Source: Verrucomicrobiota bacterium (GTDB taxonomy: Bacteria; Verrucomicrobiota; Verrucomicrobiia; Opitutales; UBA2995). Taken from it: 59,372 nucleotides of DNA. The notes beneath the pieces were generated by a model, which ran no database searches, was not told where the DNA came from, and saw nothing but the letters and a program-made list of their open reading frames with translations. The stretch lies in NCBI GenBank assembly GCA_027622555.1, contig JAQBYJ010000027.1, positions 1 to 59,372 on the forward strand, read 5' to 3'. A program made the position numbers and the translations under genes. Of this stretch, positions 22,570 to 42,766 are shown in pieces (the first letter of the stretch is position 1; every line of letters begins with the position of its first letter).

Positions 22570-22593
22570 TTGACAATTAGTAACACGCGTTAC
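22570..22593 (+). promoter_or_regulatory. Promoter -35 box with MarR-type operator, rightward pca operon
   Basis: TTGACA at 22570-22575 is followed by ATTA and the palindrome GTAACACGCGTTAC (22580-22593), 12 bases before the esterase ATG. The identical TTGACAATTAGTAAC plus GTTAC arrangement occurs on the opposite strand upstream of marR (30013-30036). A repressor bound here would cover the -35/-10 spacer. The -10 box is poor (T-rich, near 22593-22600), so a transcript would have a very short or no leader. Confidence 0.7.
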
Positions 22594-22605
22594 CTTTTTA
22601 TTCTC

Positions 22606-23511
22606 ATGAAGACACCATCATTTGCCCTAGTGCTTTTAGTTGTTCTCCATATTTCATTAGCTGGCCAACGAAACAACGGTCCGGTCCTTCCAGAAGGCAC
22701 CCAAATTGATAAGGACATAGTATACGAAAGCGTGGGCGACCGGGAGCTACCGCTCGACCTTTACCGGCCAGCTGGATCAACCGGGCCATTGCCATTAGTT
22801 ATTTGGATCCATGGAGGCGGATGGAGAAATGGAAGCAAAAATGGAATCCAGGCTTGCAGTACTGTTTTAAAACACGGTTACGCATTGGCCTCAGTAGAAT
22901 ATCGTCTTAGTGGAGAGGCCATATTTCCTGCAGCCATTGAAGACTGCAAAGCCGCTGTAAGCTACCTCAGGCTCAACGCAAAAAAATATGGATTGGATCC
23001 AGATCGATTTGGCGTTTGGGGATCTTCCGCTGGAGGCCATCTTGTAGCGCTTCTCGGAGTCACTAACGATGTGAGCGATTTCGATACTCACTCGGTTACG
23101 AAAAAGGCCTCTCCAAAAGTTCAAGCGGTTTGCAACTGGTTTGGTCCTACCGACTTTTTACGAATGAACGATTTTGAAGGACGGATGAATCATAACGCTG
23201 CGGATAGTCCAGAATCTCTGTTTATAGGAGCATCCATACAAGATCATCCCGAAAAAACTCAAAAAGCGAATCCGATAACCTATGTGTCTCCAACCGATCC
23301 ACCCATGCTTTTGATGCATGGAAGTAAAGATGGATTGGTTGTCTATAATCAGAGCGAGCTTTTATATGCCGCGCTTCAAAAGGCTGGAGTCAAGTCGAGC
23401 CTCTACAAGGTCGTCAATGGCGACCATGGGTTTCGAGGATCGGACGAAAGTATGGAATCCCTGATTCAGCGTTCTATAGATTTCTTTGATAAAGAATTGA
23501 AAGGACTCTAA
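22606..23511 (+). CDS. Secreted BD-FAE-like alpha/beta-hydrolase heading the protocatechuate operon
   Basis: A 301-residue protein from the ATG at 22606 (a frame open from 22570 would include the operator and is rejected). A signal peptide ends near SLAG-QRN. The alpha/beta-hydrolase core has the oxyanion motif HGGGW, the nucleophile elbow GSSAGG, an acid in HGSKDGLV and the histidine in NGDHGF. This is the pattern of BD-FAE/feruloyl-esterase-like enzymes. As the first gene under the shared operator it may release hydroxybenzoate-type acids from esters outside the cytoplasm; that role is inferred from context. No clear Shine-Dalgarno sequence precedes it. Confidence 0.75.
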   Translation: MKTPSFALVLLVVLHISLAGQRNNGPVLPEGTQIDKDIVYESVGDRELPLDLYRPAGSTGPLPLVIWIHGGGWRNGSKNGIQACSTVLKHGYALASVEYRLSGEAIFPAAIEDCKAAVSYLRLNAKKYGLDPDRFGVWGSSAGGHLVALLGVTNDVSDFDTHSVTKKASPKVQAVCNWFGPTDFLRMNDFEGRMNHNAADSPESLFIGASIQDHPEKTQKANPITYVSPTDPPMLLMHGSKDGLVVYNQSELLYAALQKAGVKSSLYKVVNGDHGFRGSDESMESLIQRSIDFFDKELKGL

Positions 23512-23557: not shown

Positions 23558-24901
23558 ATGTCGCAGTCCAATAAATATAAATACTCGTCCGAACATGTGA
23601 CTGAAATTTTCTCACCCCAGAATAAAGTCAGGGCGATGCTGAATTTCGAAGCGGCATTGGCCAAAGCTGAAGCGACTGCAGGCGTAATTCCTGAAGATGC
23701 AGCAGCAATCATTAGCAAATCCTGTGAGGAAGCGGTTTTCGACGCCGCAGACCTTGAAGCCAGAGGATCCCGCGCTGGAACCATGGTGATTCCCTTGGTT
23801 AAAGATTTAATTTCACACGTTCACGATAAATCACCAGAGGCGGCACGCTTTGTTCACTTCGGATCTACCAGTCAGGATGTTTTGGATACCGCTTTGGTCT
23901 TAAACCTCAAGGAAGCCATTTTCTATATAAACGCAGATCTTGAGCGTATGGAAAAGGCGTTCGCAAAACTGGCCCGAGAACATGCGGGAACACTACTTCT
24001 TGGCCGAACCTTACTTCAACCGGGATCACCCATTAGCTTTGGACTGAAGGCAGCCGGTTGGGCCTCAGCAGTACGACGTGGTCGGGAGCGCATAAACCAA
24101 TCTGGAGAAAACGCTTTGGTTCTACAATTTGGTGGGGCAGTAGGAACGTTGTCCACCCTTCACTCAAATGGATTGAAAGTCGGTAAAGCCTTATCAGCCG
24201 AATTAGGACTTCCTCTGCCCGACGCACCCTGGCACACGCACCGCGACCGTCTTGTCGGGTTTGCTTCCGCTTTAGCCATTCTTGTGGGGACCTTGGGGAA
24301 AATTGCCCGCGATATTTCACTCCATATGCAACGAGAAATTGGAGAACTTTCCGAGCCCATTGAAGAGGGACGAGGTGGATCATCTGCCATGCCGCATAAA
24401 CGAAACCCGGTAGGATGTATGCATGTGCTGTCTGCAGCAAATCGAGTCCCGGGATTATTGTCGTCCCTATTATCGGGCATGGTTCAGGAGCATGAACGCA
24501 GTATCGGAAACTGGTCGGCCGAATGGTCCACGTATCCGGATCTTATAAAGGAAGTGGCAAAAGCAAGCTCAGCGATATTGGAAGTCTCCGAAGGTTTGGA
24601 GGTAAATACCAAACAAATGCGGAAGAACCTGGATGAAACCCTGGAGATCGTTTTTTCCGAAGCACTCGCGGCAGCCCTCATTCCACACTTGGGTCGAAAA
24701 GAAGCGCAGCGACTGGTCGCGAATCTGTTGGATGAGGTAATCACTTCGAATAAACCATTATCACTCGTTGCTTCTGCAAATCCTTTCGTCTCCCAGGCAA
24801 TTAACTCGAAAGACTTGAAAAACGTATTTGATCCTAACAACGCTCTCGGTTCGACCAATGATTGGATCGAAAGACTTTTAGCTGGAGAAGCTAAGGATTA
24901 A
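23558..24901 (+). CDS. pcaB: 3-carboxy-cis,cis-muconate cycloisomerase
   Basis: A 447-residue fumarase/aspartase-superfamily enzyme. GSSAMPHKRNPVGC is the superfamily signature loop, FGSTSQDVLDTAL the first conserved region and LLLGRTLLQPGSPISFGLKAAGW the second, matching PcaB rather than adenylosuccinate lyase. It lactonises 3-carboxymuconate from protocatechuate cleavage to 4-carboxymuconolactone. It lies 46 bases after the esterase and 2 bases before the pcaD remnant. A TTAGTAACC half-operator lies at 23541-23549. Confidence 0.88.
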   Translation: MSQSNKYKYSSEHVTEIFSPQNKVRAMLNFEAALAKAEATAGVIPEDAAAIISKSCEEAVFDAADLEARGSRAGTMVIPLVKDLISHVHDKSPEAARFVHFGSTSQDVLDTALVLNLKEAIFYINADLERMEKAFAKLAREHAGTLLLGRTLLQPGSPISFGLKAAGWASAVRRGRERINQSGENALVLQFGGAVGTLSTLHSNGLKVGKALSAELGLPLPDAPWHTHRDRLVGFASALAILVGTLGKIARDISLHMQREIGELSEPIEEGRGGSSAMPHKRNPVGCMHVLSAANRVPGLLSSLLSGMVQEHERSIGNWSAEWSTYPDLIKEVAKASSAILEVSEGLEVNTKQMRKNLDETLEIVFSEALAAALIPHLGRKEAQRLVANLLDEVITSNKPLSLVASANPFVSQAINSKDLKNVFDPNNALGSTNDWIERLLAGEAKD

Positions 24902-24903
24902 TC

Positions 24904-25215
24904 ATGCCCTGTGCTACAGTATGCGATGGGACAAAATTCTACTACGAGCTGGAGGGCAACCCTTCGAATCCTGTTTTGATGTTTTCGAATTCTCTAGGGA
25001 CAACCCTCAACATGTGGGACAGACAATCGTCGACATTCCCAACTACTTTTCAGCTGCATCGCTATGACAGTCGTGGTCATGGAAAGTTAATAGTCAGCAA
25101 AATCTTGACCGCCGAATACGTGGAAATTGCCAATGCAGCTCATTTGTCGAATATCGAGCAGCCGGAACAGTTCAATGCTGCTCTCTCTGATTTCTTGGAA
25201 AGGAATACCCTATGA
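24904..25215 (+). pseudogene. pcaD: 3-oxoadipate enol-lactonase remnant with in-frame core deletion
   Basis: The 103-codon frame begins like PcaD (FYYELEGNPSNPVLMFSNSLGTTLNMWD, then HRYDSRGHG to residue 60) and then jumps to the PcaD C-terminus (AEYVEIANAAHLSNIEQPEQF). About 150 residues present in ordinary PcaD (around 260 residues) are missing, including the nucleophile serine elbow and the acid; only the catalytic histidine (His80) remains. The joint falls near 25084-25102 and keeps the frame, so the overlap with pcaC (ATGA) and translational coupling survive. The product should be inactive as a lactonase. An assembly collapse is an alternative. Confidence 0.75.
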
Positions 25216-25607
25216 ATAATGATGAAAATAAAACCGAGGCTTACATAAAAGGTGAAGCAATTCGCCGAAACGTTTTGGGTGATGAGCACGTCGACCGTGC
25301 TATCACAGGAACGAAGGAATTCAAAGGAGCATTCCAGGAATTCATCACCCGCTATGCCTGGGGCGAGATCTGGGATAGACCCGGGCTCGATAAAAAAACT
25401 CGCAGCCTTCTCACCCTTTCGATGCTGATCGCCTTAGGTCATGATTCGGAGTTTGAAATGCATATTCGAGCGGCGATTAACAACGGAGTAACCGTGGAGG
25501 AAATCAAAGAACTCCTTATGCATTCCGCCCTTTATTGCGGTCTACCTGCGGCCAATCATGGGTTCAAATTAGCCGAAGGAATTCTAAAAGAATTGGGGAA
25601 GCTTTAA
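25212..25607 (+). CDS. pcaC: 4-carboxymuconolactone decarboxylase
   Basis: A 131-residue protein of normal length for PcaC. It contains the FITRYAWGEIWDRPGLDKKTRSLLTLSMLIALG signature and EFEMHIRAAINNGVTVEEIKELLMHSALYCGLPAANH, holding the conserved Glu, Cys and His of the AhpD-like fold. It decarboxylates 4-carboxymuconolactone to 3-oxoadipate enol-lactone, the substrate of the damaged pcaD next door. The start overlaps the pcaD stop as ATGA. Confidence 0.9.
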   Translation: MNNDENKTEAYIKGEAIRRNVLGDEHVDRAITGTKEFKGAFQEFITRYAWGEIWDRPGLDKKTRSLLTLSMLIALGHDSEFEMHIRAAINNGVTVEEIKELLMHSALYCGLPAANHGFKLAEGILKELGKL

Positions 25608-25645: not shown

Positions 25646-26992
25646 ATGAAAACAGTACCTATAATAACGGCCGAACATGCCGCTTCACTTGTTCACGACG
25701 GTGACACACTTCTTGGAGGAGGATTCGGAATGACCGGAAACCCAGTCCGTCTTCTGCATGCACTTGCACGGACTGAGGTTAAAGACCTGACATTCGTTGC
25801 CAACAATGTTGGTGAAATCAATCTCGGAGGCGGTAGGCTACTTCGTAATGGTCAGCTCCGTAAAATGGTTGGGTCCTATTTCACCAGCAATCATGAGGCG
25901 ACAAAAGCCATTCAGACCGGCGAGGTAGACCATGAACTTCTCCCACAAGGGACTTTGGCTGAAGCGATTCGCGCAGGTGGCGCCGGGCTAGGTGGATTTT
26001 TTACACCCACTTCGGCAGGAACCCTGCTCGCCGAAGGCTGTGAGACAAAAGTAATAGACGGAGTTGAACAGGTTTTGGTGAAGAGTATTCGTGGAAATGT
26101 AGCTTTCATACGTGCCTGGAAAGCTGATACTGCAGGAAACCTGGTCTATCGGATGACCGAACAAAATTTCAATAAAGCCATGGCTACCGCTGCGGATATA
26201 GTGATCGCCGAGGTTCAGGAAATCGTACCGGTCGGAGAAATCGTACCAGAATCTATTCATACGCCTGGCTGTTTTGTAGACTATCTCGTCGAGTCAAAAT
26301 TGTCCCTCGAGGACTTGGGAAGTTCTTCCCACGTAAGTTCGGATAGGAAAATTGAATCCTGGAGATTGAACATGGCAAAACGAGCCTATCAGGAATTGAA
26401 AAGAGGCGATGTGGTGAATCTTGGCATAGGCATTCCAACGTTGGTCTCAGATTATATTTCAGAAGAGGATGGTATCCTGCTCCACAGCGAAAATGGCATG
26501 CTAGGCGTCGGCCCCACTCCGACAGATGGAGGCGGAGCGATGCACTATCCAGTTAACGCTGGAAAAGTACCGGTCACTCCTTTGAAGGGTTGTAGCTATT
26601 TCGATAGTGCCGATTCGTTTGCCATGATTCGTGGAGGCCACGTTGATGTAGCGATCATTGGTGGTCTCGAAGTCGATGAATCAGGAAACCTGGCCAATTG
26701 GGCCGTCCCGGGGAAACCGGTACTGGGCGTTGGTGGCGCCATGGATCTAGCATCTGGAGCTAAACGCCTGATTGTTACCTTAAAGCATACCGGAAAAAAC
26801 GGGGAATCAAAGGTGGTGCCTCAATGCACCTTGCCCCTTACGGCGAAACATGCTGTTTCAATGATCATTACCGACCTGGCTGTTTTCAACTTTGAGAATG
26901 ATGTTTTGACCTTGATTGAAATGATGCCAGGAGCCTCGTTAGAAGATGTTAGAAATAACACAGAGGCAAAATTTATTGAAAAGCTTTCCTGA
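25646..26992 (+). CDS. pcaIJ: Fused 3-oxoadipate CoA-transferase (A and B subunits in one chain)
   Basis: A 448-residue protein joining the usually separate subunits. Residues 1-218 match PcaI ([31 protein letters not shown]), a 19-residue linker follows, and residues about 238-448 match PcaJ ([25 protein letters not shown] with Glu282 as the CoA-thioester nucleophile, and [12 protein letters not shown]). It transfers CoA from succinyl-CoA to 3-oxoadipate, the last activation step before thiolysis; no pcaF thiolase is in the window. It is the last gene of the rightward operon and ends 3 bases from the convergent pobA. Confidence 0.85.
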
Positions 26993-26995
26993 AAC

Positions 26996-28180
26996 TCAGA
27001 ACGGAAGCCCAACGTAATTTTCAGTCAGACTTGCCATGGCAGCTTGCGAGTTTACCAGGTAACCCAGCTCAGCAAGCTGAAGTTTTTGCGAGAAACCACC
27101 CGTTTCATGATCAGGAAAGCGATGTGTAAGGTGAGTGAACCACCAGGAAAAACGAATGGCTTTCCAAACGCGGTCGAGTGCTTTGTCCGAATAACAATCC
27201 AGCCCAGTCGTTTGCCCGGTTTTGTAGTACTCAATTAACCCGTCAGAAAGGTAATGAACGTCCGAAGCAGCCAGATTAAGTCCTTTCGCTCCCGTGGGAG
27301 GCACGATGTGAGCGGCATCACCCGCAATGAAAAGTGATTTATAACGCATCGGCTCCGCCACAAAACTTCTCAAGGGAGCTATGCTTTTTTCAATCGAAGG
27401 GCCCGTATCAATGTGCTTCCCCACTCTATTTCCAAACCGGTGAATTAAGGTTGCCCAAAACCGGTCATCCGACCAGGCATCCAATTTCTCATTCAAATCA
27501 CACTGAATATAATACCGGCTTCTCGTTTTCGAACGCTGACTAGCCAAGGCAAAGCCATCCGGGTGATTGTTATAAATGAGTTCGTCCGATACGGGCTTCA
27601 CATCGGCAAGAACTCCCAGCCAACCAAAAGGATACGCCCTTTCATAGATTTCAAGGAATGATTCAGGAAAGTGTTTTCTGGATACGCCATGATAACCGTC
27701 ACAGCCTACAACAAAATCACAATCAATCTTGTAGGATTTTTCGTCGTGCGTGTAGCTTAGGGAGGGAGCCCCAGACTCAATTCCCTCTATCTGAACGTCT
27801 TTTGCTCTATACACCGGTTCCTGCCCGCGTTCGGCATGTGCATCCATAAGGTCTTTGGTAATCTCGGTCTGCCCATAAACCGTTACACTTTTGCCGGTTG
27901 ACTGAGCATTAAAATCAATACGGTGAAGGGTGTCATTAAATAGAAGTCCAATTCCCGTATGGATGAGTGCTTCCTTATGTAGCCTTTTTGCCACCTTCGC
28001 CGCCTCCAGCATGTTGACGGTTCCCTGTTCCAATATGCCTGCCCGGATGCGCCCTTCCACGTGGGCACGGGAGTATTTTTCCAGGATGATGGATTCGATG
28101 CCATTGACATGCAGGATCTGAGAAAGCAGAAGTCCCGCTGGCCCTGACCCGATTATCCCCACCTGCGTCTTGTGCGTCAT
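26996..28180 (-). CDS. pobA: 4-hydroxybenzoate 3-monooxygenase
   Basis: A 394-residue flavoprotein that hydroxylates 4-hydroxybenzoate to protocatechuate with NADPH and oxygen. It shows the FAD-binding GSGPAGLLLSQIL, the CDFVVGCDG motif, the second flavin motif FIAGDAAHIVPPTGAKGLN and the PobA-typical C-terminus ENYVGLPF. Length equals the Pseudomonas enzyme. It is the last gene of the marR-pcaH-pcaG-pobA leftward unit, 16 bases after pcaG. Confidence 0.9.
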   Translation of the reverse strand: MTHKTQVGIIGSGPAGLLLSQILHVNGIESIILEKYSRAHVEGRIRAGILEQGTVNMLEAAKVAKRLHKEALIHTGIGLLFNDTLHRIDFNAQSTGKSVTVYGQTEITKDLMDAHAERGQEPVYRAKDVQIEGIESGAPSLSYTHDEKSYKIDCDFVVGCDGYHGVSRKHFPESFLEIYERAYPFGWLGVLADVKPVSDELIYNNHPDGFALASQRSKTRSRYYIQCDLNEKLDAWSDDRFWATLIHRFGNRVGKHIDTGPSIEKSIAPLRSFVAEPMRYKSLFIAGDAAHIVPPTGAKGLNLAASDVHYLSDGLIEYYKTGQTTGLDCYSDKALDRVWKAIRFSWWFTHLTHRFPDHETGGFSQKLQLAELGYLVNSQAAMASLTENYVGLPF

Positions 28181-28196
28181 AAAACTGCGGATACAA

Positions 28197-28778
28197 CTAA
28201 AACTCTAAAAACACAGTCGCCTGATCGCCCTGCATATGAATATCAAATTGGTAGACCACATCCTGCTCATCCTGAACTTTTTGAGCAATGAGTGTATTGC
28301 GACGGTTAGCGGGAATCAGTCGAAGCAAGGGATCCTGTTCATTTGCTTCGACTTCATCCGAAAAGTACAGACGCGTATAAACATGATGCATCAATCCTCT
28401 GGAGAAAATGGTGAGAGCTATGTGAGGCGCTTGTTGCTCATCTACTTTTCCAGGTTTAACCGTCCGAATTATATATCGGTTTTCCTCATCAGTACCGGTA
28501 CCAAATCGCCCAAAACCAGAAAATTTATCTGCGCAAATTGTCCGGGAGTATTTTCCTTCCCCATCCGCTTGCCAGCTCTCAACGATTACGTTTTTCATCA
28601 GATCGCCTGATCCACTAAAGACTTTTCCAACAATAGTGATGGGTTCTCCAGCTTCGTAATCGCGAGCCACATTACCAGATGCCAATTCCCGGAAATCGTA
28701 ACCATATTGTTCTGGAGCAAGTCCATAGGAGAAAAATGGACCCACAGTTTGGGAAGGTGTTTGTTTGAACGAGCTCAT
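28197..28778 (-). CDS. pcaG: Protocatechuate 3,4-dioxygenase alpha subunit
   Basis: A 193-residue protein starting at MSSFKQTPSQTVGPFFSYGL; a TTG 12 bases upstream is a worse start. GEPITIVGKVFSGSGD, VIVESWQADGEGKY and PHIALTIFSRGLMHHVYTRLYF are typical of the alpha chain, which forms the active-site pocket but does not bind iron. A GAGG sequence inside the end of pcaH can serve as ribosome-binding site. The ATG lies one base past the pcaH stop, which suggests translational coupling. Confidence 0.9.
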   Translation of the reverse strand: MSSFKQTPSQTVGPFFSYGLAPEQYGYDFRELASGNVARDYEAGEPITIVGKVFSGSGDLMKNVIVESWQADGEGKYSRTICADKFSGFGRFGTGTDEENRYIIRTVKPGKVDEQQAPHIALTIFSRGLMHHVYTRLYFSDEVEANEQDPLLRLIPANRRNTLIAQKVQDEQDVVYQFDIHMQGDQATVFLEF

Positions 28779-28779
28779 A

Positions 28780-29478
28780 TCAATCCTCAAACGGAGTAGC
28801 GTTGGGTCCTCGCAAAATAATATCCCATCGGTAACCGAGCGCGAATCCTTCCTCAGTTAGGTCCAGGGAAAAATCAGCGATCATGCGTTTGCGTGCTTCA
28901 TCGGGTGGTCCTTTGTAAATCGGATCATAGGCAAGCAACGGGTCGCCTTCAAAATACATCTGAGTAACCAGGCGCGTCATGATGTTGGGACCAAAAATCG
29001 AAAAATGAATATGTTGAGGTCGCCAGGCATTGGGATGGTTACCCCAAGGGTATGCACCGGGTCGTATGGTGGTGAATTTATACCAGCCATCTTTGTCGGT
29101 GAGCGTTCTTCCCGCTCCGAGGAAGTTAGGATCCAAGGGTGCACCATGCTGATCCTGTTTATCAATGTATCTTCCAGTTGAGTTTGCTTGCCAAATCTCA
29201 ACCATAGTCATCGGCAAAGGAGAACCATTTTCATCTAACACTCTTCCAGAAACGATGATACGCTCGCCGATTGGGTCTCCCGTCTTTATAGCATTTTTCG
29301 TTAAGTCATTGTCGAATTCTCGCAACACAGACCCATCAAACCGGGGCCCGCTTGTCTCAGTTATAGTCTGCGGAACAATGACCGGTTCCTCGGTAGGAGC
29401 TCGTGTCGTACCCGACTTGTAGGGTGGATAATAATTCGGAGAATGACTTTCCTTGTCCTTGGATTTGTATGGCTGCAT
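28780..29478 (-). CDS. pcaH: Protocatechuate 3,4-dioxygenase beta subunit
   Basis: A 232-residue intradiol dioxygenase chain that binds the catalytic Fe(III). The four ligands are visible in order: Tyr in STGRYIDK, Tyr in RPGAYPWG, and the two His of RPQHIHFS. The MVEIWQANSTGRY and MYFEGDPLLAYDPIY segments match PcaH. With PcaG it opens the ring of protocatechuate to 3-carboxy-cis,cis-muconate. It starts 45 bases downstream of marR. Confidence 0.92.
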   Translation of the reverse strand: MQPYKSKDKESHSPNYYPPYKSGTTRAPTEEPVIVPQTITETSGPRFDGSVLREFDNDLTKNAIKTGDPIGERIIVSGRVLDENGSPLPMTMVEIWQANSTGRYIDKQDQHGAPLDPNFLGAGRTLTDKDGWYKFTTIRPGAYPWGNHPNAWRPQHIHFSIFGPNIMTRLVTQMYFEGDPLLAYDPIYKGPPDEARKRMIADFSLDLTEEGFALGYRWDIILRGPNATPFED

Positions 29479-32805: not shown

Positions 32806-32834
32806 ATCTGATGCACTTTAAAATTGCATCAGAT
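32806..32834. promoter_or_regulatory. Inverted-repeat operator of the first toxin-antitoxin pair
   Basis: ATCTGATGCA (32806-32815) and TGCATCAGAT (32825-32834) are perfect 10-base inverted arms around a 9-base AT-rich spacer, ending 3 bases before the antitoxin ATG. A TTGACA at 32801-32806 abuts the left arm as a possible -35 box. This is the expected place for autoregulation by a ribbon-helix-helix antitoxin. Confidence 0.65.
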
Positions 32835-32837
32835 ACT

Positions 32838-33080
32838 ATGAGAACAACCTTGGATATTGATAAACCCATTTTGAATGAACTGAAACGCTTAGGTAAAAAG
32901 CAAAAGAAAACGGTTGGGAAACTTGTCAGCGAACTACTTGCCACTTCTTTAAAGGATTTGGAGAAGATGCAGACTATCCAGTCAAAGGCTGCATTTAACT
33001 GGAACTCCAAATCAATGGGAGCCCAGGTAGATATAGAGGATAAGGAAGCTCTTCACGCCGCAATGGATAAAGCCCCATGA
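32838..33080 (+). CDS. Ribbon-helix-helix antitoxin (VapB-like)
   Basis: An 80-residue protein starting at MRTTLDIDKPILNELKRLGKK; the more upstream ATG lies inside the operator. The N-terminal strand RTTLDID and following two helices fit a ribbon-helix-helix DNA-binding domain, and the C-terminal 35 residues should wrap the toxin. The stop overlaps the toxin start as ATGA, giving translational coupling. The pair sits between the symporter and a sulfatase. Confidence 0.75.
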   Translation: MRTTLDIDKPILNELKRLGKKQKKTVGKLVSELLATSLKDLEKMQTIQSKAAFNWNSKSMGAQVDIEDKEALHAAMDKAP

Positions 33081-33511
33081 GCTACTCTATCGACGCCAAT
33101 ATTCTAATCTATGCGTCCAATCAGGAGTCAGATTTTCACAACAAAGCCAAAGCCTTTATGTCAGCTTGCATCGAAAATTCGGAGCCAATCTATCTCTGCT
33201 GGCCTACCGTGTTCGCCTATCTTAGAATAAGCACTCATCCCCATATTTTCACATTTCCACTCACTCCTAAAGAAGCTATCCAAAATATTGAAACCCTAAA
33301 GTCCTTACCCCAAGTTCGCCTTATCAACGAAGGCGATCATTTTTGGGAACATTATTCAGAAGCATGCAAAGGGCAAATTGTTCGCGGCAACCTCGTTCCT
33401 GATGCTCATGTTGCAGCTCTATTGCGCGAAAATGGCATCCGTCGCCTCTTTTCCCGTGACCGCGACTTCTTTAAATTTACTTTTCTTGATGTCAGAGACC
33501 CGTTTGCCTGA
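33077..33511 (+). CDS. PIN-domain toxin (VapC-like ribonuclease)
   Basis: A 144-residue PIN-domain protein. Acidic metal ligands are visible as Asp in SIDANILIYA, Asp in LVPDAHVAALLRENG and the Asp pair in FSRDRDFFKF, as expected for VapC-type endoribonucleases that cleave tRNA or other RNA. WPTVFAYLRISTHPHIF is typical of the TA-linked VapC subgroup. Activity is presumably blocked by the preceding antitoxin. Confidence 0.8.
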   Translation: MSYSIDANILIYASNQESDFHNKAKAFMSACIENSEPIYLCWPTVFAYLRISTHPHIFTFPLTPKEAIQNIETLKSLPQVRLINEGDHFWEHYSEACKGQIVRGNLVPDAHVAALLRENGIRRLFSRDRDFFKFTFLDVRDPFA

Positions 33512-33556
33512 ATCCAGGAATTGATAGAGACCTCAATCAGGATCAAGACCAAGACA

Positions 33557-35005
33557 ATGAAGTTTTTCATTTTAGTATTTCTAAATTTAGCCTTTTGCAT
33601 CATGCCTTTGTCGGCAGCAGAAAAAGTGGATGGAACGTCACGTTCCCCCAACGTCCTCTTCATCGCCATTGACGACATGAACGATTTGACGACGCTGTTC
33701 GACAAATCCAATCCCATAAAAACCCCGAACCTCAAGCGGCTTGCCGATCAAGGGACCTTCTTTGCCAGAGCCTATTGTAACTCTCCGGCCTGCAATCCTT
33801 CTCGTGCATCGGTTCTCAGCGGAGTCCGGCCGTCTACCAGTGGTGTCTATAACAACAGCAGCAATTGGAACAAAGCGATGCCGGAGATCACCATTCTCCC
33901 CCAGCATTTTAAGGATCATGGCTATCGCACCTATGCGTCAGGAAAGATCTTTCATCACCACGGCACTGCCTTTTTTCGTTACGAAGCATTTGATGAATAT
34001 CTTGAGTTTCCGACCAGCCAGCCGGATCGCCCGATGCCTCCAAACGGCAACTTGAACGGGATTGATCAATGGACTCGTCCGAATGGTGGAAAAGGAAAAG
34101 TAAGTCGCAATTTCGATTGGGGAGTATACCCGGATGATCCAGAATTTCACATCGACAATCGAACGGTCGATTGGGCCATTGATAAAATAGGGAAAGCCGA
34201 AGGTCCGTTCTTTATCGCTACCGGAATTTTTCGTCCACACATGCCGTTCTTTGCACCTCAAGAATGGTATGATGCTTACTCGATGAAGGATTTGGAATTG
34301 CCTGCCATTAATCAAAACGATCTCGAAGACGTACCCGAAGAAGCTCGGCAAATGCTCCACCCTCCCTCTCGGAGTTTCATGAGCACCTTTAAAGCAGAAA
34401 AGGCTAGCGACCCGGAAATCTTCGAGAAAGCGGTTCGTGGTTATCAAGCGTCAGCGAGTTTCGCCGATTACAATGTAGGCCGATTGATGGAAGCCTTAAA
34501 TGAAAGCGGTAAGGCGGACAACACCATCATTGTTCTCTGGTCCGACCACGGGTTTCATTTAGGCGAAAAAGAACACTGGGAGAAGTTCGTTCTCTACGAA
34601 AAGGCGACACACATTCCCTTCATCATAGTAGCACCCGGATTCAAGAAAGGACAGGTCAGCTATCGTCCAGTTACTTTAATTGACCTTTACCCTACCCTGA
34701 CCGAACTCTGCGGACTACCGACACCGGAGCACCTCGAAGGCGAGAGCCTGATTCCTCTATTAAAAAACCCGAAAGCCAAAAAGGATCCCGCGATAATTAC
34801 CTACGGACAAGACAACCATGCCATACGTGACGACCGGTACCGGTATATCCGGTACGCCGGCGGCGATGAAGAACTCTACGACACGGAAAACGATCCGCAC
34901 GAATGGACCAACCTGGCCACTCAAAAGAGTAGTCGCAAAATCATGGACGAGCTGGCCAAGTGGCTACCTGACCACAACTCGGCTCCCATCGAAGCGGCCA
35001 AGTAA
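33557..35005 (+). CDS. Secreted S1 sulfatase, iduronate-2-sulfatase-like
   Basis: A 482-residue protein starting at MKFFILVFLNLAF, which gives a signal peptide ending near PLSA; the earlier start adds a polar extension. NVLFIAIDDMND provides the calcium-binding Asp pair, and Cys79 in CNPSRASVLSG is the residue converted to formylglycine. FRPHMPFFAP and LWSDHGFHLGEKEHWEK supply the remaining sulfate and metal contacts. The overall pattern is that of subfamily S1_7, acting on sulfated glycans. Residues 26-30 are encoded by the palindrome GGAACGTCACGTTCC. Confidence 0.85.
   Translation: MKFFILVFLNLAFCIMPLSAAEKVDGTSRSPNVLFIAIDDMNDLTTLFDKSNPIKTPNLKRLADQGTFFARAYCNSPACNPSRASVLSGVRPSTSGVYNNSSNWNKAMPEITILPQHFKDHGYRTYASGKIFHHHGTAFFRYEAFDEYLEFPTSQPDRPMPPNGNLNGIDQWTRPNGGKGKVSRNFDWGVYPDDPEFHIDNRTVDWAIDKIGKAEGPFFIATGIFRPHMPFFAPQEWYDAYSMKDLELPAINQNDLEDVPEEARQMLHPPSRSFMSTFKAEKASDPEIFEKAVRGYQASASFADYNVGRLMEALNESGKADNTIIVLWSDHGFHLGEKEHWEKFVLYEKATHIPFIIVAPGFKKGQVSYRPVTLIDLYPTLTELCGLPTPEHLEGESLIPLLKNPKAKKDPAIITYGQDNHAIRDDRYRYIRYAGGDEELYDTENDPHEWTNLATQKSSRKIMDELAKWLPDHNSAPIEAAK
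33632..33646. repeat. 15-base palindrome inside sulfatase coding sequence
   Basis: GGAACGTCACGTTCC is a perfect palindrome around a central C. It lies between the signal-peptide region and the first sulfatase motif and encodes part of DGTSRSPN. The same palindrome with identical flanks occurs at 41375-41389 in another sulfatase. Confidence 0.6.
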
Positions 35006-35105
35006 TAATTCCGATGATTATTAAATCAATTTCCTGTTCGCCAACAAAACAACTTCTGAAGTTACACTTCCAATCTTCACAAAATAACATAGGACAACTG
35101 TTTGT

Positions 35106-36008
35106 ATGAACTGGAGTATTGGAATCGATGTCGGCGGCACTGCCATCAAAGCCGTAGCAGTAGATGAAGAAGGTACCATTCTCAATAGGATTTCACTTCC
35201 TACAAATGATGGGGCAGATTCAGTAGCTGAGTGGACGGAAAATGCCCGTCAAACAATTCGTGACTTCGAAAAGGAAATAGCTTCGCCCGCACTTTCAATT
35301 GGCATTTCTGCTCCAGGTCTCGCTGCGGCTGACGACCGGAGTATTGCATATCTGCCAGGGAAAATGGAAGACATTCAAGGATTCGACTGGACGGATGCTC
35401 TGGACAGAAAGTCGCTTGTTCCTGTTCTCAACGACGCTCACGCCGCCTTGCTCGGAGAAGCCTGGATAGGAGCCGCTAAAGGCAGACAAAACGTGGTTCT
35501 CCTAACCCTTGGAACGGGAGTTGGTGGAGCGATCACTTCAAGTGGCAGGCTTTTAAAAGGAGTTATTGGTCGAGCCGGTCACCTCGGACATATGAGTCTT
35601 GATATCGATGGTCCAATCAGCAATTGCGGTACGCCGGGAGCAATTGAGGTGATGATTGGTAATTACACCATTAAGGAACGATCCAAAGGCAGGTTCTCAT
35701 CAACCCGTGAGCTTGTGGATGCACACGAGGCGAACGATCCTGTTGCTACAGAAATCTGGCTTCGATCCATTCGTGCACTTGGTTGTGCCATTGCCTCTTA
35801 TATTAACATAATCGATCCAGAAGTTGTCGTCCTCACAGGAGGAATTTCGATTGTCGGAAAAACCCTCATGGATCCCCTGAAATCTGTTCTCGATGAAGTA
35901 GAGTGGCGACCGGGCGGACACCAAGTCCCGATAGTTTTTGGAAAACTGGACATGTGGGCCGGAGCGGTAGGCGCAGCTTACGCGGCTTTAAATCCGGATG
36001 CATTCTAA
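35106..36008 (+). CDS. ROK-family sugar kinase
   Basis: A 300-residue cytoplasmic protein with the ATP-binding GIDVGGTAIKAVAVD, a catalytic Asp in LNDAHAALLGE, the LGTGVGG loop and a second phosphate motif VVLTGGISIVG. The usual ROK zinc motif CxCGxxGCxE is degenerate (SNCGTPGAIEVM): only one cysteine remains and zinc binding is doubtful. In this locus N-acetylmannosamine or another released amino sugar is a plausible substrate; glucokinase is equally possible from sequence. Confidence 0.8.
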   Translation: MNWSIGIDVGGTAIKAVAVDEEGTILNRISLPTNDGADSVAEWTENARQTIRDFEKEIASPALSIGISAPGLAAADDRSIAYLPGKMEDIQGFDWTDALDRKSLVPVLNDAHAALLGEAWIGAAKGRQNVVLLTLGTGVGGAITSSGRLLKGVIGRAGHLGHMSLDIDGPISNCGTPGAIEVMIGNYTIKERSKGRFSSTRELVDAHEANDPVATEIWLRSIRALGCAIASYINIIDPEVVVLTGGISIVGKTLMDPLKSVLDEVEWRPGGHQVPIVFGKLDMWAGAVGAAYAALNPDAF

Positions 36009-36122
36009 ATAGTGAGAGTTTCGTTCTTCGCTGTGCCTGATTTAAAGTTGATCCAAAGTACCACCAAATGCGCAAAAATCGTCTTTGGAACAATAGACAA
36101 TTCCACCTCATGAATCAGGCAG

Positions 36123-36524
36123 TTAACCTGATTCCAAATTTTTATACGTCTCAACTTGTAATCCCTGAATTCGTTTAAAATGCTGATCATTGCGGGTCAC
36201 CAATTGGAAATTACCCACTAGCGCAGTCGCGGCTATCAAGATATCGAAGTCGCCTATCAGCTTTCCTTGCAACCGGAGTTGCCTGCGAATTCTGGAGGCC
36301 TCTTTAGCTACAATAGGACTCACCGATAACCACTGAAATGATCGAAGAAACTTCTCCCCATCTTCAATCGCTTCAAATCCCTCAAGAAATTCCGTTAGGG
36401 AAATTACTGACAACGCAAAATTGTCCTGAGAGTGCTCTTTTAAGTAACTGCTCGCTCCGAGTGTTTTCCCTCCATGAAACTCTCGCTGAAGGTCGATTAG
36501 AAAACAGGTGTCCAGCAGTTTCAT
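36123..36524 (-). CDS. PIN-domain toxin of the second toxin-antitoxin pair
   Basis: A 133-residue PIN protein starting at MKLLDTCFLIDLQRE, overlapping the antitoxin stop as ATGA. Metal-binding acids are Asp5, Glu in SLTEFLEGF, Asp in IGDFDILIAATAL and Asp in TRNDQHFKRI, the full VapC set. It is unrelated in detail to the first toxin in the window. Confidence 0.8.
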   Translation of the reverse strand: MKLLDTCFLIDLQREFHGGKTLGASSYLKEHSQDNFALSVISLTEFLEGFEAIEDGEKFLRSFQWLSVSPIVAKEASRIRRQLRLQGKLIGDFDILIAATALVGNFQLVTRNDQHFKRIQGLQVETYKNLESG

Positions 36525-36787
36525 TCGTCCCATTTGGAGGGTGACGTGCGCTGTTGGATCGAGTCTTCCTTTTCCGCTTTGTCCCAATAATCAAGTGTCG
36601 CTTTTGCAACAGGTTTGCGTTTGGCACCATAAATCGACTTCAATTCTCGAAGTATACTCTCGCCAGTATTCTCCCCACCATCAAAACGGGCACGCCGAAC
36701 CACCGCAGAAAATGATTCCTTTCCACGCTTGGCTCGTTTGAGCTTTTCATAGGCATCCAATTCCAAACTGATCGTCTTAATAGCCAT
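36521..36787 (-). CDS. Antitoxin of the second toxin-antitoxin pair
   Basis: An 88-residue protein starting at MAIKTISLELDAYEKLKRAKRGKESFSAVVRRA. The strand-helix-helix start (IKTISLELDAYEKLKRAK) fits the ribbon-helix-helix/VapB antitoxin class often annotated DUF217. The charged C-terminal half would neutralise the PIN toxin. The start codon is part of a palindrome that may be its operator. Confidence 0.75.
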   Translation of the reverse strand: MAIKTISLELDAYEKLKRAKRGKESFSAVVRRARFDGGENTGESILRELKSIYGAKRKPVAKATLDYWDKAEKEDSIQQRTSPSKWDE

Positions 36788-36804
36788 GCATGAGTAGATG
36801 CATG
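36785..36804. promoter_or_regulatory. Palindromic operator overlapping the second antitoxin start
   Basis: CATGCAT (36785-36791) and ATGCATG (36798-36804) are inverted arms around GAGTAG. On the minus strand the element ends in the antitoxin ATG, and a TTGACA box lies about 17 bases upstream of it. Antitoxin binding would block both transcription and the start site region. Confidence 0.5.
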
Positions 36805-36976
36805 AAAATGAAACAATTGTCAAGACGTTGAAATTCTGAAAATTGGTAGAATCCCGGTCGCTCACGCGTTTCAAAGCTCTCACCTTTAGAAAGAAAACTC
36901 ACATATCAAAATTACGGACTTTCCTCCGTGTATTCAGAGGTGTAGGTATCAATAAGTTCAAAAACAGACACTCGAA

Positions 36977-38446
36977 ATGGCAAATGACACAACCCGGGTA
37001 GCAATAAAGATCGTCCTTGCGCTTCTTTGTTTAAACCAAATCGCATTCACCAATACTCAACCCAACATTCTCCTCATCGTGTCCGAGGACAATGGACAAG
37101 AGCTTGGCTGTTACGGCGAACCCTATGTGCAAACACCGAATCTTGATCAACTCGCAAGCGAAGGGGTCTTGTTTAAGAACGCCTATGTAGCTCAGGCGGG
37201 TTGCAGCCAATCGCGCGCTTCTTTTTTAACAGGATTGTATCCTCATCAGAACGGACAGATCGGTTTGGCCACCTGGAAGTTTCGGATGTATGACGAGAAT
37301 ACGCCGAACATAGTTCGAAGTCTGAAAGCCGCCGGTTACCGGACCGGCATCATAGGCAAGTTGCATGTCAATCCTGAGCCTGCCTTCCCATTCGATTTTA
37401 AAGCAATTCCTTCCGCAAATTTTAATCGAAAGGATCAGGATAATTACGCCACCGAAGCAAAACGTTTTATGACCGCGGATGAGGAACCGTTTTTTCTGAG
37501 CGTTAATTACCCGGACGCACACCGTCCATTTATCACCCAAGTAGATGGACTTCCGAAAAAGCCTTTGACGGGCAAGGACGTAAAGCCCCTCGCCTACTTT
37601 GGCATCGATAACGCAGAACTGAGACAACAGACAGCCGACTATTACAACTGCATGAGTCGCTTGGATTCCTTGATCGGAAATCTGTTATCGAAACTTCAAG
37701 AAACAGGGAAAACCGACAATACCATCATCGCCTATATCGGGGACCACGGCGCAGACATGCTTCGCGGGAAACGTACTTCCTACGAAGGTGGCACGCGTGT
37801 CCCATTTATCATGAAATGGCCAGAACATGCGAAGGCAAATCTCGTCTCCACTGAACTGGTTTCCCTCATCGACCTGGCACCCACTTTACTGGAAGCAGCA
37901 GGCGCAGAACCGATTCCAAATTTACCCGGTCGATCCCTTTTACCTTTGCTCAAAGGCGAATCCAAGGACTGGCGTCAGTATTTGTTTACTGAGTTTCACA
38001 TTCATTCGGCCCACAACTATTACCCTCAACGGACGGTACAGGATGATCGTTACAAACTCATCGTGAACCTGATGCCCGGTGTGAAGAACCCGGGTTACGA
38101 GTTTACAAACAATCGGTTTTTTGAAAACTTGAACGACACTATTCGTTCGGCAGAAGAACCTATAAAAAGCGCCTACCTCAATATGGAAAGGCCGGTTCGA
38201 TTCGAACTCTACGATCTGAAAGAAGATCCCTACGAGTTCACCAATCTGGCCGCAAATCCCGCGGTCTCAGGCCATTTGGCTCGTTTGCAAAAAACACTCC
38301 AATCTTGGCGCATGGAAACAGATGACCCAATGCTCAATCACAATAATGTTCTTCGTCTGAAAGCCGAGGTGGATGCCTGCTTCGTAAACGGCGAACCCGA
38401 CAAAACAAAACTAACCTTAACTTACCCCGATTACTTTTTTGAATGA
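36977..38446 (+). CDS. Secreted S1 sulfatase, heparan N-sulfatase-like, variant CSQSR site
   Basis: A 489-residue protein with a signal peptide (ALLCLNQIAF...). NILLIVSEDNGQELGCYGE gives the metal-binding acids, and GDHGADMLRGKRTSYEGGTRVPFIMKWP is typical of sulfamidase-like subfamily S1_8. The modification site is Cys76-Ser-Gln-Ser-Arg; the usual proline of CxPSR is glutamine, which may affect formylglycine formation. It begins a run of rightward sulfatase/sialidase genes and its stop overlaps the next start as ATGA. Confidence 0.82.
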   Translation: MANDTTRVAIKIVLALLCLNQIAFTNTQPNILLIVSEDNGQELGCYGEPYVQTPNLDQLASEGVLFKNAYVAQAGCSQSRASFLTGLYPHQNGQIGLATWKFRMYDENTPNIVRSLKAAGYRTGIIGKLHVNPEPAFPFDFKAIPSANFNRKDQDNYATEAKRFMTADEEPFFLSVNYPDAHRPFITQVDGLPKKPLTGKDVKPLAYFGIDNAELRQQTADYYNCMSRLDSLIGNLLSKLQETGKTDNTIIAYIGDHGADMLRGKRTSYEGGTRVPFIMKWPEHAKANLVSTELVSLIDLAPTLLEAAGAEPIPNLPGRSLLPLLKGESKDWRQYLFTEFHIHSAHNYYPQRTVQDDRYKLIVNLMPGVKNPGYEFTNNRFFENLNDTIRSAEEPIKSAYLNMERPVRFELYDLKEDPYEFTNLAANPAVSGHLARLQKTLQSWRMETDDPMLNHNNVLRLKAEVDACFVNGEPDKTKLTLTYPDYFFE

Positions 38447-39990
38447 ACGCAATTGGTAGGGACGGATCGCCGAGCCGTCCGGAATCCCCAAACATACGGC
38501 CCGCTCGGCGATCGGGCCCTACCCCAAGGCAAAGAATTGTTGTCTGTATTTTAATACTTCTACCTGCAACCTTCGGCCTTCTTCCTTTGTCCGCGAGTTC
38601 AGCACCCAACGTCCTCTTCATCGGCATAGACGATCTTCGTCCCGACCTCGGGTGCTACGGAGATGAATTTGCCATCACACCCAACTTTGATCGCCTGGCT
38701 GCCCAGGGCACGGTGTTTAACCGAGCCTATTGCCAACTAGCTGTGTGTGGACCTTCAAGGTTGTCACTGCTTTCGGGCCGACGGCCGGACACTATTCAGG
38801 TCTGGGACCTCAATTCTCATTTCCGCGAAACCATTCCGGACTTGATAACCTTGCCCCAGCATTTTAAAAACAAAGGTTACTATACTCGTTCGATCGGAAA
38901 GATTTATCACGGAAGTGGAGCACCTGCCAAAGATACTCCGTCCTGGTCGGAGGATCCGCTTTACGACGACACAAGAAAACACGAATGGCGTTATGCGTCT
39001 GCGGAGAATCGGGCGGTCGACACACTTAAGCGCGAAGCAACTGAAGGCGAGGATGTACCCGAAAATACCTTCGTTGATGGACTGGTTTGCGACGCGGCGG
39101 AAGAAGCACTCGCTACCCTAAAAGATAAACAGCAACCGTTCTTTCTTGGGGTCGGGTTCAGGAAACCCCACCTACCCTTTGTGGCACCCAAGAAATACTG
39201 GGATTTATACAAGCGATCAGAGATCCCAGGACGAGTAACTCAAACTCATCCGAAAGGTGCCCCCGAATTTGCCACACGAACTTGGAACGAAATAGAAGGA
39301 TATACAGACATTCCAAAAGACCTTAATGCTATTTCCGCCGATAAGATTCAAGAACTTCGCCATGGCTACTACGCCTGTATCAGCTATATTGATGTTTTGA
39401 TCGGGCGCTTGCTCGACCGATTGGATGAACTGGATTTGACAGATAACACGGTCATTTGCCTTTGGGGCGACCATGGGTTTCATTTAGGCGAACAAGGTCT
39501 CTGGACGAAGGCCAACAACTATGAATTAGCAGCCCGAGTTCCCTTGATCATTTCTATTCCTGGGCAAAAAGAAAAAGGCGTAACTTCCAATGCCTTTGTC
39601 GAACTGGTGGATATTTACCCTACACTATCTGATTTGTGTGGTCTTGACCTTTCTTCAGAGCTCGAAGGACTAAGCATGAAACCCCTTTTAGATCAACCCG
39701 ACCTTCCCTGGAAATCCGCAACTTTCAATCAATACCCGAGAGATTACACCGCCATAAAACACAAACGCCACGGCGATGTCATGGGCTATGCCGTTCGTAC
39801 AGACCGCTACCGCTATGTTCAATGGAAAGATTGGAAGAGCGGCGAGATTCTTGAGGAAGAACTTTATGATCAGCAAACTGACCCGAATGAAATGATAAAC
39901 ATTGCGAAGGACATCAAACAAGCAGCCACTCTATTTCAACATCAACGAATTTTGGAAGCGGGCTGGAAAGGTGCGTTACCACTCAAATAA
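38443..39990 (+). CDS. S1 sulfatase with repeat-derived N-terminus
   Basis: A 515-residue frame with NVLFIGIDDLRPDLGCYGD, Cys102 in CGPSRLSLLSGRRPDT, FRKPHLPFVAP and LWGDHGFHLGEQGLWTK, placing it with iduronate-2-sulfatase-like S1_7 enzymes. A signal-peptide-like stretch (IVVCILILLPATFGLLPLSASS) begins only at residue 32. Residues about 5-28 are encoded by the palindromic repeat at 38455-38525 and are Arg/Pro/Ser-rich. No ATG, GTG or TTG in frame lies between the repeat and the hydrophobic core, so the protein either starts with the repeat-encoded segment or uses a rare start. Confidence 0.8.
   Translation: MNAIGRDGSPSRPESPNIRPARRSGPTPRQRIVVCILILLPATFGLLPLSASSAPNVLFIGIDDLRPDLGCYGDEFAITPNFDRLAAQGTVFNRAYCQLAVCGPSRLSLLSGRRPDTIQVWDLNSHFRETIPDLITLPQHFKNKGYYTRSIGKIYHGSGAPAKDTPSWSEDPLYDDTRKHEWRYASAENRAVDTLKREATEGEDVPENTFVDGLVCDAAEEALATLKDKQQPFFLGVGFRKPHLPFVAPKKYWDLYKRSEIPGRVTQTHPKGAPEFATRTWNEIEGYTDIPKDLNAISADKIQELRHGYYACISYIDVLIGRLLDRLDELDLTDNTVICLWGDHGFHLGEQGLWTKANNYELAARVPLIISIPGQKEKGVTSNAFVELVDIYPTLSDLCGLDLSSELEGLSMKPLLDQPDLPWKSATFNQYPRDYTAIKHKRHGDVMGYAVRTDRYRYVQWKDWKSGEILEEELYDQQTDPNEMINIAKDIKQAATLFQHQRILEAGWKGALPLK
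38455..38525. repeat. Type-A palindromic repeat at a sulfatase-sulfatase junction
   Basis: The left arm GGTAGGGACGGATCGCCGAG...CCGTCC and the right arm CTCGGCGATCGG...CCCTACC are inverted around a short spacer and could form a long stem. The copy at 41220-41289 shares both arms. It begins 8 bases after the upstream sulfatase stop and is read through by the following sulfatase frame. Confidence 0.8.
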
Positions 39991-40097
39991 CTGAATATTT
40001 TGAAACCACAAGAAGCGCAAAATGCACAAATTGCTGATTCAACGTAATAAGTAAGTTTTGCGTTTTCTGTGCTTTCTGTGATTCCTAAAAACTAAAA

Positions 40098-41216
40098 ATG
40101 AATATTCTTCTCAAAACTATTATTGTCCCATTCTTTTTCTTAGCTGGATCAGTTTCAGCCTACGCGTTCGACGAATACATGATCTTCAAGTCCGGCGACG
40201 AAGGTTATTCCAACTACCGTATCCCCTCCCTGATTACAACGAAGGATGGATCCCTATTAGCCTTCTGCGAAGCTCGCAAAGATAATCGTGGCGATAGCGG
40301 AAACATTGATCTGATTGCCAAGCGCTCGACAGACCATGGGAAGACCTGGTCCGCTCCGATCGTGGTTTGGGATGCCGGAGACGAGACAGCGGGTAATCCC
40401 TGTCCCGTCGTTGACCAAAGAACCGGGCGCATTATAAATATCCTATGCTGGAACCTGGCGAGTGATCACGGAAGCGATTTGCACGCAGGCACCAGTAAAA
40501 ACACTCGTCGCGTTTTCCAAACACACTCCGACGACGATGGCATCACTTGGTCAGAACCAAAGGAAATAACTGCCAATGTTAAAGATCCATCTTGGTGGTG
40601 GTACGCAACTGGCCCCGGTATAGGTATTCAGTTGGAGAACGGACCACACAAGGGTCGCTTAGTCATTCCCGCTAATCATACAGCCCCCGGTTACTATGGA
40701 GCACATACCCTGTACAGTGATGACGGCGGAGACACTTGGTCTATAAGCAACATCATCAAACCAACGGTTAATGAAAGTCAGGTCGTCGAACTATCAGATG
40801 GCCGATTGATGATGAATATGAGATCACAAGGTTTTCCAGAAACAGCTCGCCCAAGAAATGGTTATCGATCCATCGCTTTTAGCACCAATGCTGGTGAGTC
40901 CTGGACAAAGCCCAGATTTGACAAAACCCTCGGCGATCCACGCTGTCAGGGAAGTATCATTCGCTTCGACGAAGAGACGCTACTTTTCTCTAACCCAAAT
41001 CCACCCATCAAAGCAGAGAGAGGTGAACGCATTCGTATGACGGTTCGTGCCAGTAACGATGATGGAAAAACCTGGCCACACGAATTACTCGTTTATGAAG
41101 GTCCTTCCGCCTACTCGTCGCTTGTCAGGATGGCAGACGGACAGGTCGGGCTACTCTATGAAAAGGACAAAGATATCGTGTTTGCGACTTTCGCATTGGA
41201 TAAAATAGTCAGGTAA
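40098..41216 (+). CDS. Secreted exo-alpha-sialidase (GH33-type)
   Basis: A 372-residue protein with signal peptide (FFFLAGSVSAYA). YRIP at residues 40-43 supplies the first arginine of the sialidase triad, CEARK and RGDSGNIDL follow as in GH33 enzymes, and five Asp boxes (STDHGKTW, HSDDDGITW, YSDDGGDTW, STNAGESW, SNDDGKTW) define the propeller. It should release terminal sialic acid outside the cytoplasm for uptake by the Kelch-symporter protein. It lies between two sulfatase genes in the same direction. Confidence 0.88.
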   Translation: MNILLKTIIVPFFFLAGSVSAYAFDEYMIFKSGDEGYSNYRIPSLITTKDGSLLAFCEARKDNRGDSGNIDLIAKRSTDHGKTWSAPIVVWDAGDETAGNPCPVVDQRTGRIINILCWNLASDHGSDLHAGTSKNTRRVFQTHSDDDGITWSEPKEITANVKDPSWWWYATGPGIGIQLENGPHKGRLVIPANHTAPGYYGAHTLYSDDGGDTWSISNIIKPTVNESQVVELSDGRLMMNMRSQGFPETARPRNGYRSIAFSTNAGESWTKPRFDKTLGDPRCQGSIIRFDEETLLFSNPNPPIKAERGERIRMTVRASNDDGKTWPHELLVYEGPSAYSSLVRMADGQVGLLYEKDKDIVFATFALDKIVR

Positions 41217-41219
41217 ACT

Positions 41220-41289
41220 GGTAGGGACGGATCGCCGAGCCGTCCGAAACGAAACCACAGAACGGTCCGCTCGGCGATCGGACCCTACC
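41220..41289. repeat. Type-A palindromic repeat between sialidase and sulfatase genes
   Basis: Same element as 38455-38525: GGTAGGGACGGATCGCCGAG with CCGTCC on the left and CTCGGCGATCGG with CCCTACC on the right. It begins 3 bases after the sialidase stop and ends 4 bases before the next sulfatase ATG, so it occupies the entire junction including the normal ribosome-binding region. Confidence 0.8.
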
Positions 41290-41293
41290 CCAT

Positions 41294-42766
41294 ATGAAAG
41301 GATTTCAGAACAATTTCATTCTTCTTTTCTCTCTGATTTCTCCGCTCTTTGTTTCAGCCACAGATAAAATGGATGGAACGTCACGTTCCCCCAACGTGCT
41401 CTTCATTTCAGTTGACGACATGAACGACTGGGTAGGTTGCCTCGGCTCTGACCGCGTTCCAACGCCCAACATCGATGCACTTGCCGCTCGGGGCTTGCTG
41501 TTCACCAACGCGCACGCCGCAAGTCCGGTCTGTGCGCCAAGCAGAGCTGCAATCCTCACCGGGAAACGAGCCTCGACTACCGGCCTATACAACAACGGCC
41601 ACTGGTGGCGTCCCGCCTATCCGGATCTGGTGACGCTTCCTCAGTATTTTAAAAGCCACGGCTACACATCCGCAGGCGGAGGAAAAGTTCATCACCACAC
41701 GGATGGTTTTAATCCACCCGACCAATGGGATGAATATTTTAATCTCATTCGGGACCAGGATCTGATTGTCGATTACTTTAAAAAACGTGGAGAGGATCGC
41801 CGCTTTCTGACAACCATGCCCCGACACCCAAACAACTCACTCGACTGGGGACCAATGGAAGTGGATGACATGGAGATGGGCGACGGTCAAACCGTGAAAT
41901 GGGCGAGCGAATTCCTGTCCCTAAAACACCAAAAACCCTTTTTCCTCGCGGTTGGTCTGTTTCAACCACATCTCCCTTTTTACGCTCCCAAAAAGTATTT
42001 CGATCAGTTGCCCAAAGATAAAGTGGAAGTACCCATTAATAAAGAGGGCGACCTCGACGACATTCCGGAAGGAGGCCAAAAGATGGCTGAGTATCGTCGC
42101 GGCGGTCTTCGAATGATCGAAGAACACGACGATCTACAACACACGGTGCAATCCTACCTGGCAGGTATTGCTCATGCGGATGCATTGATAGGAAACCTTA
42201 TGGCAGCCTTTGACAGGAGCGATTACCGGGACAACACCATCGTCGTTTTCTGGTCGGATCACGGATACGCGTTTGGAGAAAAAGATCATCTCGCAAAAAG
42301 CACGCTTTGGGAAAGATCAACCCATGTGCCATTCATCATGATTGTTCCGGATGTCACTCAAGCTGGCTCAAAAACCGAAACACCAGTCGACCTCACTTGC
42401 CTCTACCCCACCCTCACAAGCCTATGCGGTTTGCCTGTTCCAAAAGATTTAGACGGTATCGATATAACGCCTGTGCTCAAAGATCCGCAAATCGCTTGGA
42501 CGCACCCGGCGATCTCTGATTTTTTAAAAGGAAATACAACCATCCGAACAAAAGACTGGCGTTACATCCGTTACGCCGAGGGACGTGAAGGCGAAGAACT
42601 CTACGACCGCATAAGCGACCCCAACGAATGGACCAACCTGATCGCTTCACATAGAGAGCTGACTAAAAACTTTACATCCTGGTTGCCGAACAGTTATGCG
42701 GAGGAAGTGCCGTCAAAAGGAGCTTACCATTTCGACCAGGTAAATTACTCCTGGACCCGGAAATAG
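41294..42766 (+). CDS. Secreted S1 sulfatase, iduronate-2-sulfatase-like
   Basis: A 490-residue protein with a signal peptide (NNFILLFSLISPLFVSA). NVLFISVDDMNDWVGCLG holds the metal acids, Cys80 in CAPSRAAILTG is the formylglycine site, and FQPHLPFYAP plus FWSDHGYAFGEKDHLAKSTLWE complete the active site. It is closely similar to the sulfatase at 33557, including the palindrome-encoded DGTSRSPN segment. Since the repeat directly precedes the ATG there is no Shine-Dalgarno sequence; initiation may depend on the repeat structure or on coupling. Confidence 0.87.
   Translation: MKGFQNNFILLFSLISPLFVSATDKMDGTSRSPNVLFISVDDMNDWVGCLGSDRVPTPNIDALAARGLLFTNAHAASPVCAPSRAAILTGKRASTTGLYNNGHWWRPAYPDLVTLPQYFKSHGYTSAGGGKVHHHTDGFNPPDQWDEYFNLIRDQDLIVDYFKKRGEDRRFLTTMPRHPNNSLDWGPMEVDDMEMGDGQTVKWASEFLSLKHQKPFFLAVGLFQPHLPFYAPKKYFDQLPKDKVEVPINKEGDLDDIPEGGQKMAEYRRGGLRMIEEHDDLQHTVQSYLAGIAHADALIGNLMAAFDRSDYRDNTIVVFWSDHGYAFGEKDHLAKSTLWERSTHVPFIMIVPDVTQAGSKTETPVDLTCLYPTLTSLCGLPVPKDLDGIDITPVLKDPQIAWTHPAISDFLKGNTTIRTKDWRYIRYAEGREGEELYDRISDPNEWTNLIASHRELTKNFTSWLPNSYAEEVPSKGAYHFDQVNYSWTRK
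41375..41389. repeat. Second copy of the 15-base palindrome in a sulfatase gene
   Basis: GGAACGTCACGTTCC is identical to 33632-33646, with the same GGAT before and CCCAACGT after. It encodes part of DGTSRSPN just after the signal peptide. Confidence 0.6.

Follow-up and report, generated by a model that had tools for sequence, protein, structure and literature searches.

A pcaD gene without its core in a conserved pca cluster

The window, a stretch of 59,372 nucleotides, is contig C27 of a 6.0-Mb draft genome (238 contigs, 95.8% complete; hereafter G000) from an Opitutales genus of the Verrucomicrobiota, and it carries a protocatechuate gene cluster. On the forward strand, pcaB (23558–24901; TIGR02426 over cut-off) is followed by a short frame (24904–25215), by an intact pcaC for 4-carboxymuconolactone decarboxylase (25212–25607; TIGR02425, 172.6 bits against a cut-off of 155.7), and by an intact gene for a fused PcaI-PcaJ CoA-transferase (25646–26992; TIGR02428 and TIGR02429 over cut-off). 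The reverse strand carries pobA for 4-hydroxybenzoate 3-monooxygenase (26996–28180; TIGR02360) and the genes for the alpha and beta subunits of protocatechuate 3,4-dioxygenase, pcaG (28197–28790; TIGR02423) and pcaH (28780–29478; TIGR02422), all over cut-off. These neighbors form a normal protocatechuate set, each exceeding the curated cut-off of at least one family, and the short frame sits between pcaB and pcaC, at the expected pcaD locus. Elsewhere in the window, inspection by eye revealed a small gene pair with a VapBC-type toxin-antitoxin look (32811–33511) and, downstream of the pca cluster, several sulfatase-like genes in a run (33521–42766); a lone PIN-like frame lies at 36123–36587 on the reverse strand.

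The short frame is an internally deleted pcaD, the gene for 3-oxoadipate enol-lactonase. It runs for 103 codons (103 amino acids) from ATG to TGA with no stops or frameshifts inside, and it is covered by the PcaD profile (TIGR02427, NCBIfam) solely at positions 2–52 and 215–251 of 251, scoring 78.1 bits, i.e., below the PcaD threshold of 255.85. In an alignment with five full-length PcaD proteins from the same order, numbered after the 264-residue protein of G005 from the same genus, residues 1–60 are fused to residues 222–264, with 47–58% identity to the full-length relatives over the N-terminal 60 residues and 50–61% over the C-terminal ones. The missing residues 61–221 (161 codons) contain the GLSLGG nucleophile elbow with Ser96 as well as the GxxD acid, while the catalytic His is still present, leaving the Ser-Asp-His triad incomplete. 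The product is almost certainly not an enol-lactonase. A preliminary description of this DNA had reported an in-frame deletion of pcaD within an intact operon, the loss of the nucleophile elbow and acid, and the preservation of the frame and of the ATGA overlap with pcaC. All of this was borne out: the pcaB-pcaD-pcaC-pcaIJ block is conserved, only the profile ends are matched, and pcaC starts at 25212. Its dimensions needed correction, as the first 60 residues are indeed retained but are joined to the last 43 rather than the last 40, and the gap is in frame but measures 483 bp rather than about 450.

The deletion joint falls at 25083/25084, within the HG codons of CAT GGA AAG (H-G/K; 25078–25086, forward strand). 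Codon comparison with the full-length relatives placed an HG dipeptide of codon type CAYGGN at both deletion ends (RGHG/Q at one; D/E/K-HG/K in four of five at the other, where G037 is the exception with NG in place of HG). The repeat at the joint, deduced from these relatives, is ~6 bp long, and a deletion between short repeats would be its simplest origin. An AlphaFold model of the remnant, based on a shallow alignment of 7 sequences, had low confidence (mean pLDDT of 49) and lends no support to a stable small domain, which is a weak indication.

The preliminary description had also proposed a search for a complete pcaD or pcaL elsewhere in the genome. Our profile search found no second PcaD, CatD, or PcaL over cut-off in the 95.8%-complete G000, whose absent 4% could hold one; the best PcaD paralogue (C38, 25897–26655) reached 113 bits against the cut-off of 255.85.

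pcaD was lost at least twice within the genus

The loss of pcaD recurs within the genus, which is the new element here, and the frame was preserved in both remnants. Our genus sample consisted of six genomes, G000 included (G000 to G005). G001 and G005 carry a full pcaD between pcaB and pcaC, and no PcaC or PcaH match was detected in G004. In G002, a fragmented metagenome-assembled genome (MAG; 850 contigs, 75% complete) whose contig is also found in GTDB 220 as the MAG Verrucomicrobia bacterium KW1-S08_24, the place of pcaD is taken by a 79-residue frame whose core deletion is also in frame but differs from that of G000: 185 codons are missing, about residues 1–67 and the last 12 are retained, and the ATGA with pcaC is kept. 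In G003, pcaB leads directly to pcaC, the ATG of which lies within the end of pcaB, with no pcaD in between and no PcaD over cut-off elsewhere in that genome. All three PcaD-less genomes (G000, G002, and G003) nevertheless encode PcaC and PcaH over the cut-offs.

The G000 remnant lacks residues 61–67, which are kept in G002, and contains residues 222–252, which are gone in G002. Because each remnant retains residues that the other lacks, the two deletions are separate and neither can be ancestral to the other, and pcaD was therefore lost at least twice. The loss in G003 may represent a third event or may have started from an already deleted pcaD, as the tree, built from pca genes only and with a long outgroup branch, does not fix the order of losses. 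In these bacteria, the enol-lactonase step must either be done another way or have been lost.

Outside the genus, full-length pcaD neighbors were present in G037, G211, and the related MAG UBA7389, and a PcaD alignment of at least 200 residues was obtained in 75 of 76 other loci surveyed, nearly all of them from Streptomyces. Matches to the CMD family in G183 and G176 were set aside since they had no pca context. In another Opitutales MAG (L093, 3049–5004; OX638348.1), apparent frameshifts interrupt both pcaB and pcaD, as a result of either sequencing error or real decay.

The overlap with pcaC is kept at all altered loci

The 3′ end of the remnant (25199–25215, forward strand) combines a Shine-Dalgarno-like AAAGGA with the ATGA stop/start overlap with pcaC, and the G002 remnant has retained a similar GAAAGGAA tail. 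In both genomes, the final pcaD codons include the AAAGGA ahead of the pcaC ATG, and the G002 deletion ends a few codons short of this site. We found pcaC to overlap the upstream stop in G000, G002, G005, G001, and G037, and the overlap was kept in three of three altered loci, as ATGA in G000 and G002 and as a pcaB/pcaC overlap in G003. A frame-breaking deletion would stop upstream translation ahead of pcaC. Frame-keeping deletions would have been retained owing to a proposed reliance of pcaC on the frame ahead of it, given its overlapping start and the Shine-Dalgarno–like site in the last pcaD codons. It is on this anatomy that we favor retention of the remnant for translational coupling. A stub of catI elsewhere in G000 did not keep its frame, and no coupled gene follows it; this fits the coupling argument, albeit as one case.

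Measured relative to pcaB, the nonsynonymous divergence (dN) of the N-terminal 60 codons was 0.67–1.18 in remnant pairs versus 0.80–1.04 in full-length pairs, while the C-terminal 38 codons of the G000 remnant showed a slightly raised divergence. Synonymous sites were saturated in most pairs, rendering dN/dS itself uninformative. As the N-terminal codons are not more diverged, either the deletions happened recently relative to the diversification of the genus or the remnant is under constraint.

Candidates for lactone opening and changes in the lower pathway

A triad-bearing PcaD-like alpha/beta hydrolase, 25–27% identical to PcaD, is encoded in all three PcaD-less genomes; in G000, it is the C38 paralogue (25897–26655), the first candidate for a replacement activity. 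It is 79–90% identical among the five genomes that have it, which include G001, where PcaD is present, and G004; it was not seen in G005. Because it is conserved in G004, where pcaC and pcaH were not detected, this hydrolase did not arise as a replacement, and it is a candidate moonlighter rather than a dedicated substitute. Uncatalyzed opening of the enol-lactone in the PcaD-less genomes is possible, and our literature search returned no usable paper and no rate for that reaction.

A BD-FAE family esterase gene (22570–23511) lies 47 bp upstream of pcaB and has a second copy, 73% identical, on C23 of the same genome. We rejected it as a PcaD replacement, given its apparent signal peptide, its membership in a large family within the genus, and the fact that its closest copies in relatives do not adjoin pca genes; it is more likely a substrate supplier.

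In the lower pathway, exchange or loss also affects the CoA-transferase and thiolase steps. G001, G005, and UBA7389 have pcaF in the cluster, whereas the pca loci of G000, G002, and G003 lack it; these three genomes encode a 43–44% identical thiolase elsewhere, among genes that by eye suggest a beta-oxidation cluster (ETF- and acyl-CoA dehydrogenase–like). A replacement lactonase beside this stand-in thiolase was considered and rejected on account of that gene content, so the thiolase is uninformative on the lactone step. G002 lacks the fused pcaIJ and carries an IclR-catI-catJ–like set on C572, and no pcaIJ was found in G003. G000 retains the matching IclR gene, divergent to the catI stub (L223, 4329–5463; contig C150), which encodes no more than the first 37 residues of a CoA-transferase subunit before running into unrelated sequence; catJ was not found.

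Weighing the explanations

The account that we consider probable as a whole, though well short of secure, treats 24904–25215 as a noncatalytic pcaD remnant. The enol-lactonase step would have become dispensable in the genus, through another hydrolase or nonenzymatic opening; deletions between short repeats would then have removed the pcaD core independently in different lineages; and the survivors would be deletions that disturbed neither the reading frame nor the end needed for pcaC. The full pcaD of G001 and G005 next to the different deletion in G002 and the clean loss in G003, the persistence of pcaC and pcaH, the G000 joint on matching HG codons, the triad-bearing paralogue in every PcaD-less genome, and the exchange of other lower-pathway steps all agree with this sequence of events. 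Some observations pull the other way: In both remnants, divergence of the N-terminal 60 codons relative to pcaB does not exceed that in full-length genes, the Shine-Dalgarno–like site for pcaC in both G000 and G002 suggests that dependence on coupling may not be strict, and the paralogue also occurs in G004. Two in-frame deletions would, moreover, arise without selection with a chance of 1 in 9, which leaves room for luck. That figure is equally a point for a distinctly less probable alternative, to which we still give some weight, namely decay of the protocatechuate pathway, with the remnant as an ordinary pseudogene that is in frame by luck and with PcaD unreplaced. Decay would also account for the gaps in pcaD and pcaIJ in G003, where the pathway may simply be failing, in fused pcaIJ in G002, and in cluster pcaF in G000, and for the catI stub; pcaB, pcaC, and pcaGH are, however, still intact open frames, as is pobA in G000 and G002, the fused pcaIJ of G000 is intact, and the pcaC overlap survives at every altered locus.

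Under an improbable reading, selection has retained the remnant as a small protein with a new role, e.g., in PcaC binding. The N-terminal 60 residues of both independent remnants are conserved at the full-length rate and neither frame is interrupted by stops or frameshifts, but a recent deletion accounts equally well for this conservation, G003 manages without any remnant, the two remnants share no more than the N-terminal part and some 12 residues of the tail, and the low-confidence structural model speaks against it as well. Least probable is an assembly or strain-mixture artefact hiding a full-length gene, an option that the preliminary description had raised as reads collapsed in assembly. 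Both G000, as a draft, and G002, as a fragmented MAG, invite such a suspicion, yet the joint repeat is far under an assembly k-mer, and collapse is unlikely because an independent, different in-frame deletion affects the same gene in G002 and a clean loss occurred in G003.

Discussion

In gene remnants that are kept in frame for operon continuity, read-through keeps the downstream start coupled. The present case differs in that the same gene was reduced to a remnant in two species independently and cleanly excised in a third, and our literature search found no close precedent for an in-frame remnant of this kind. PcaD and PcaC are likewise encoded back to back in PcaL/PcaDC fusions (NF051488), and two Streptomyces loci viewed in full carry long fused frames of the PcaL/PcaDC type; in G000, by contrast, PcaC has a frame of its own and the core of PcaD is missing. 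A 3-oxoadipate pathway without a stand-alone PcaD is found in the fungal protocatechuate branch, where one bifunctional enzyme, 3-carboxymuconolactone hydrolase/decarboxylase, acts on a different lactone (PMC10406623), whereas the G000 operon has the bacterial pcaB and pcaC.

PcaD is regarded as an obligatory step of the textbook pathway. We put forward, as a tentative idea that may well prove wrong, that this Opitutales genus runs the 3-oxoadipate pathway without PcaD, through an unrecognized opening enzyme or uncatalyzed, and repeatedly excises pcaD while pcaC stays coupled to the upstream gene. Gene loss is ordinary, but it is less usual for a single step of a textbook pathway to be lost repeatedly with the frame preserved. 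Repeated loss of PcaD with the flanking steps kept points to either an unknown enol-lactonase or an enzyme-free step, and the matched full, gutted, and excised loci also form a natural experiment on the limits that overlapping starts place on gene loss in operons.
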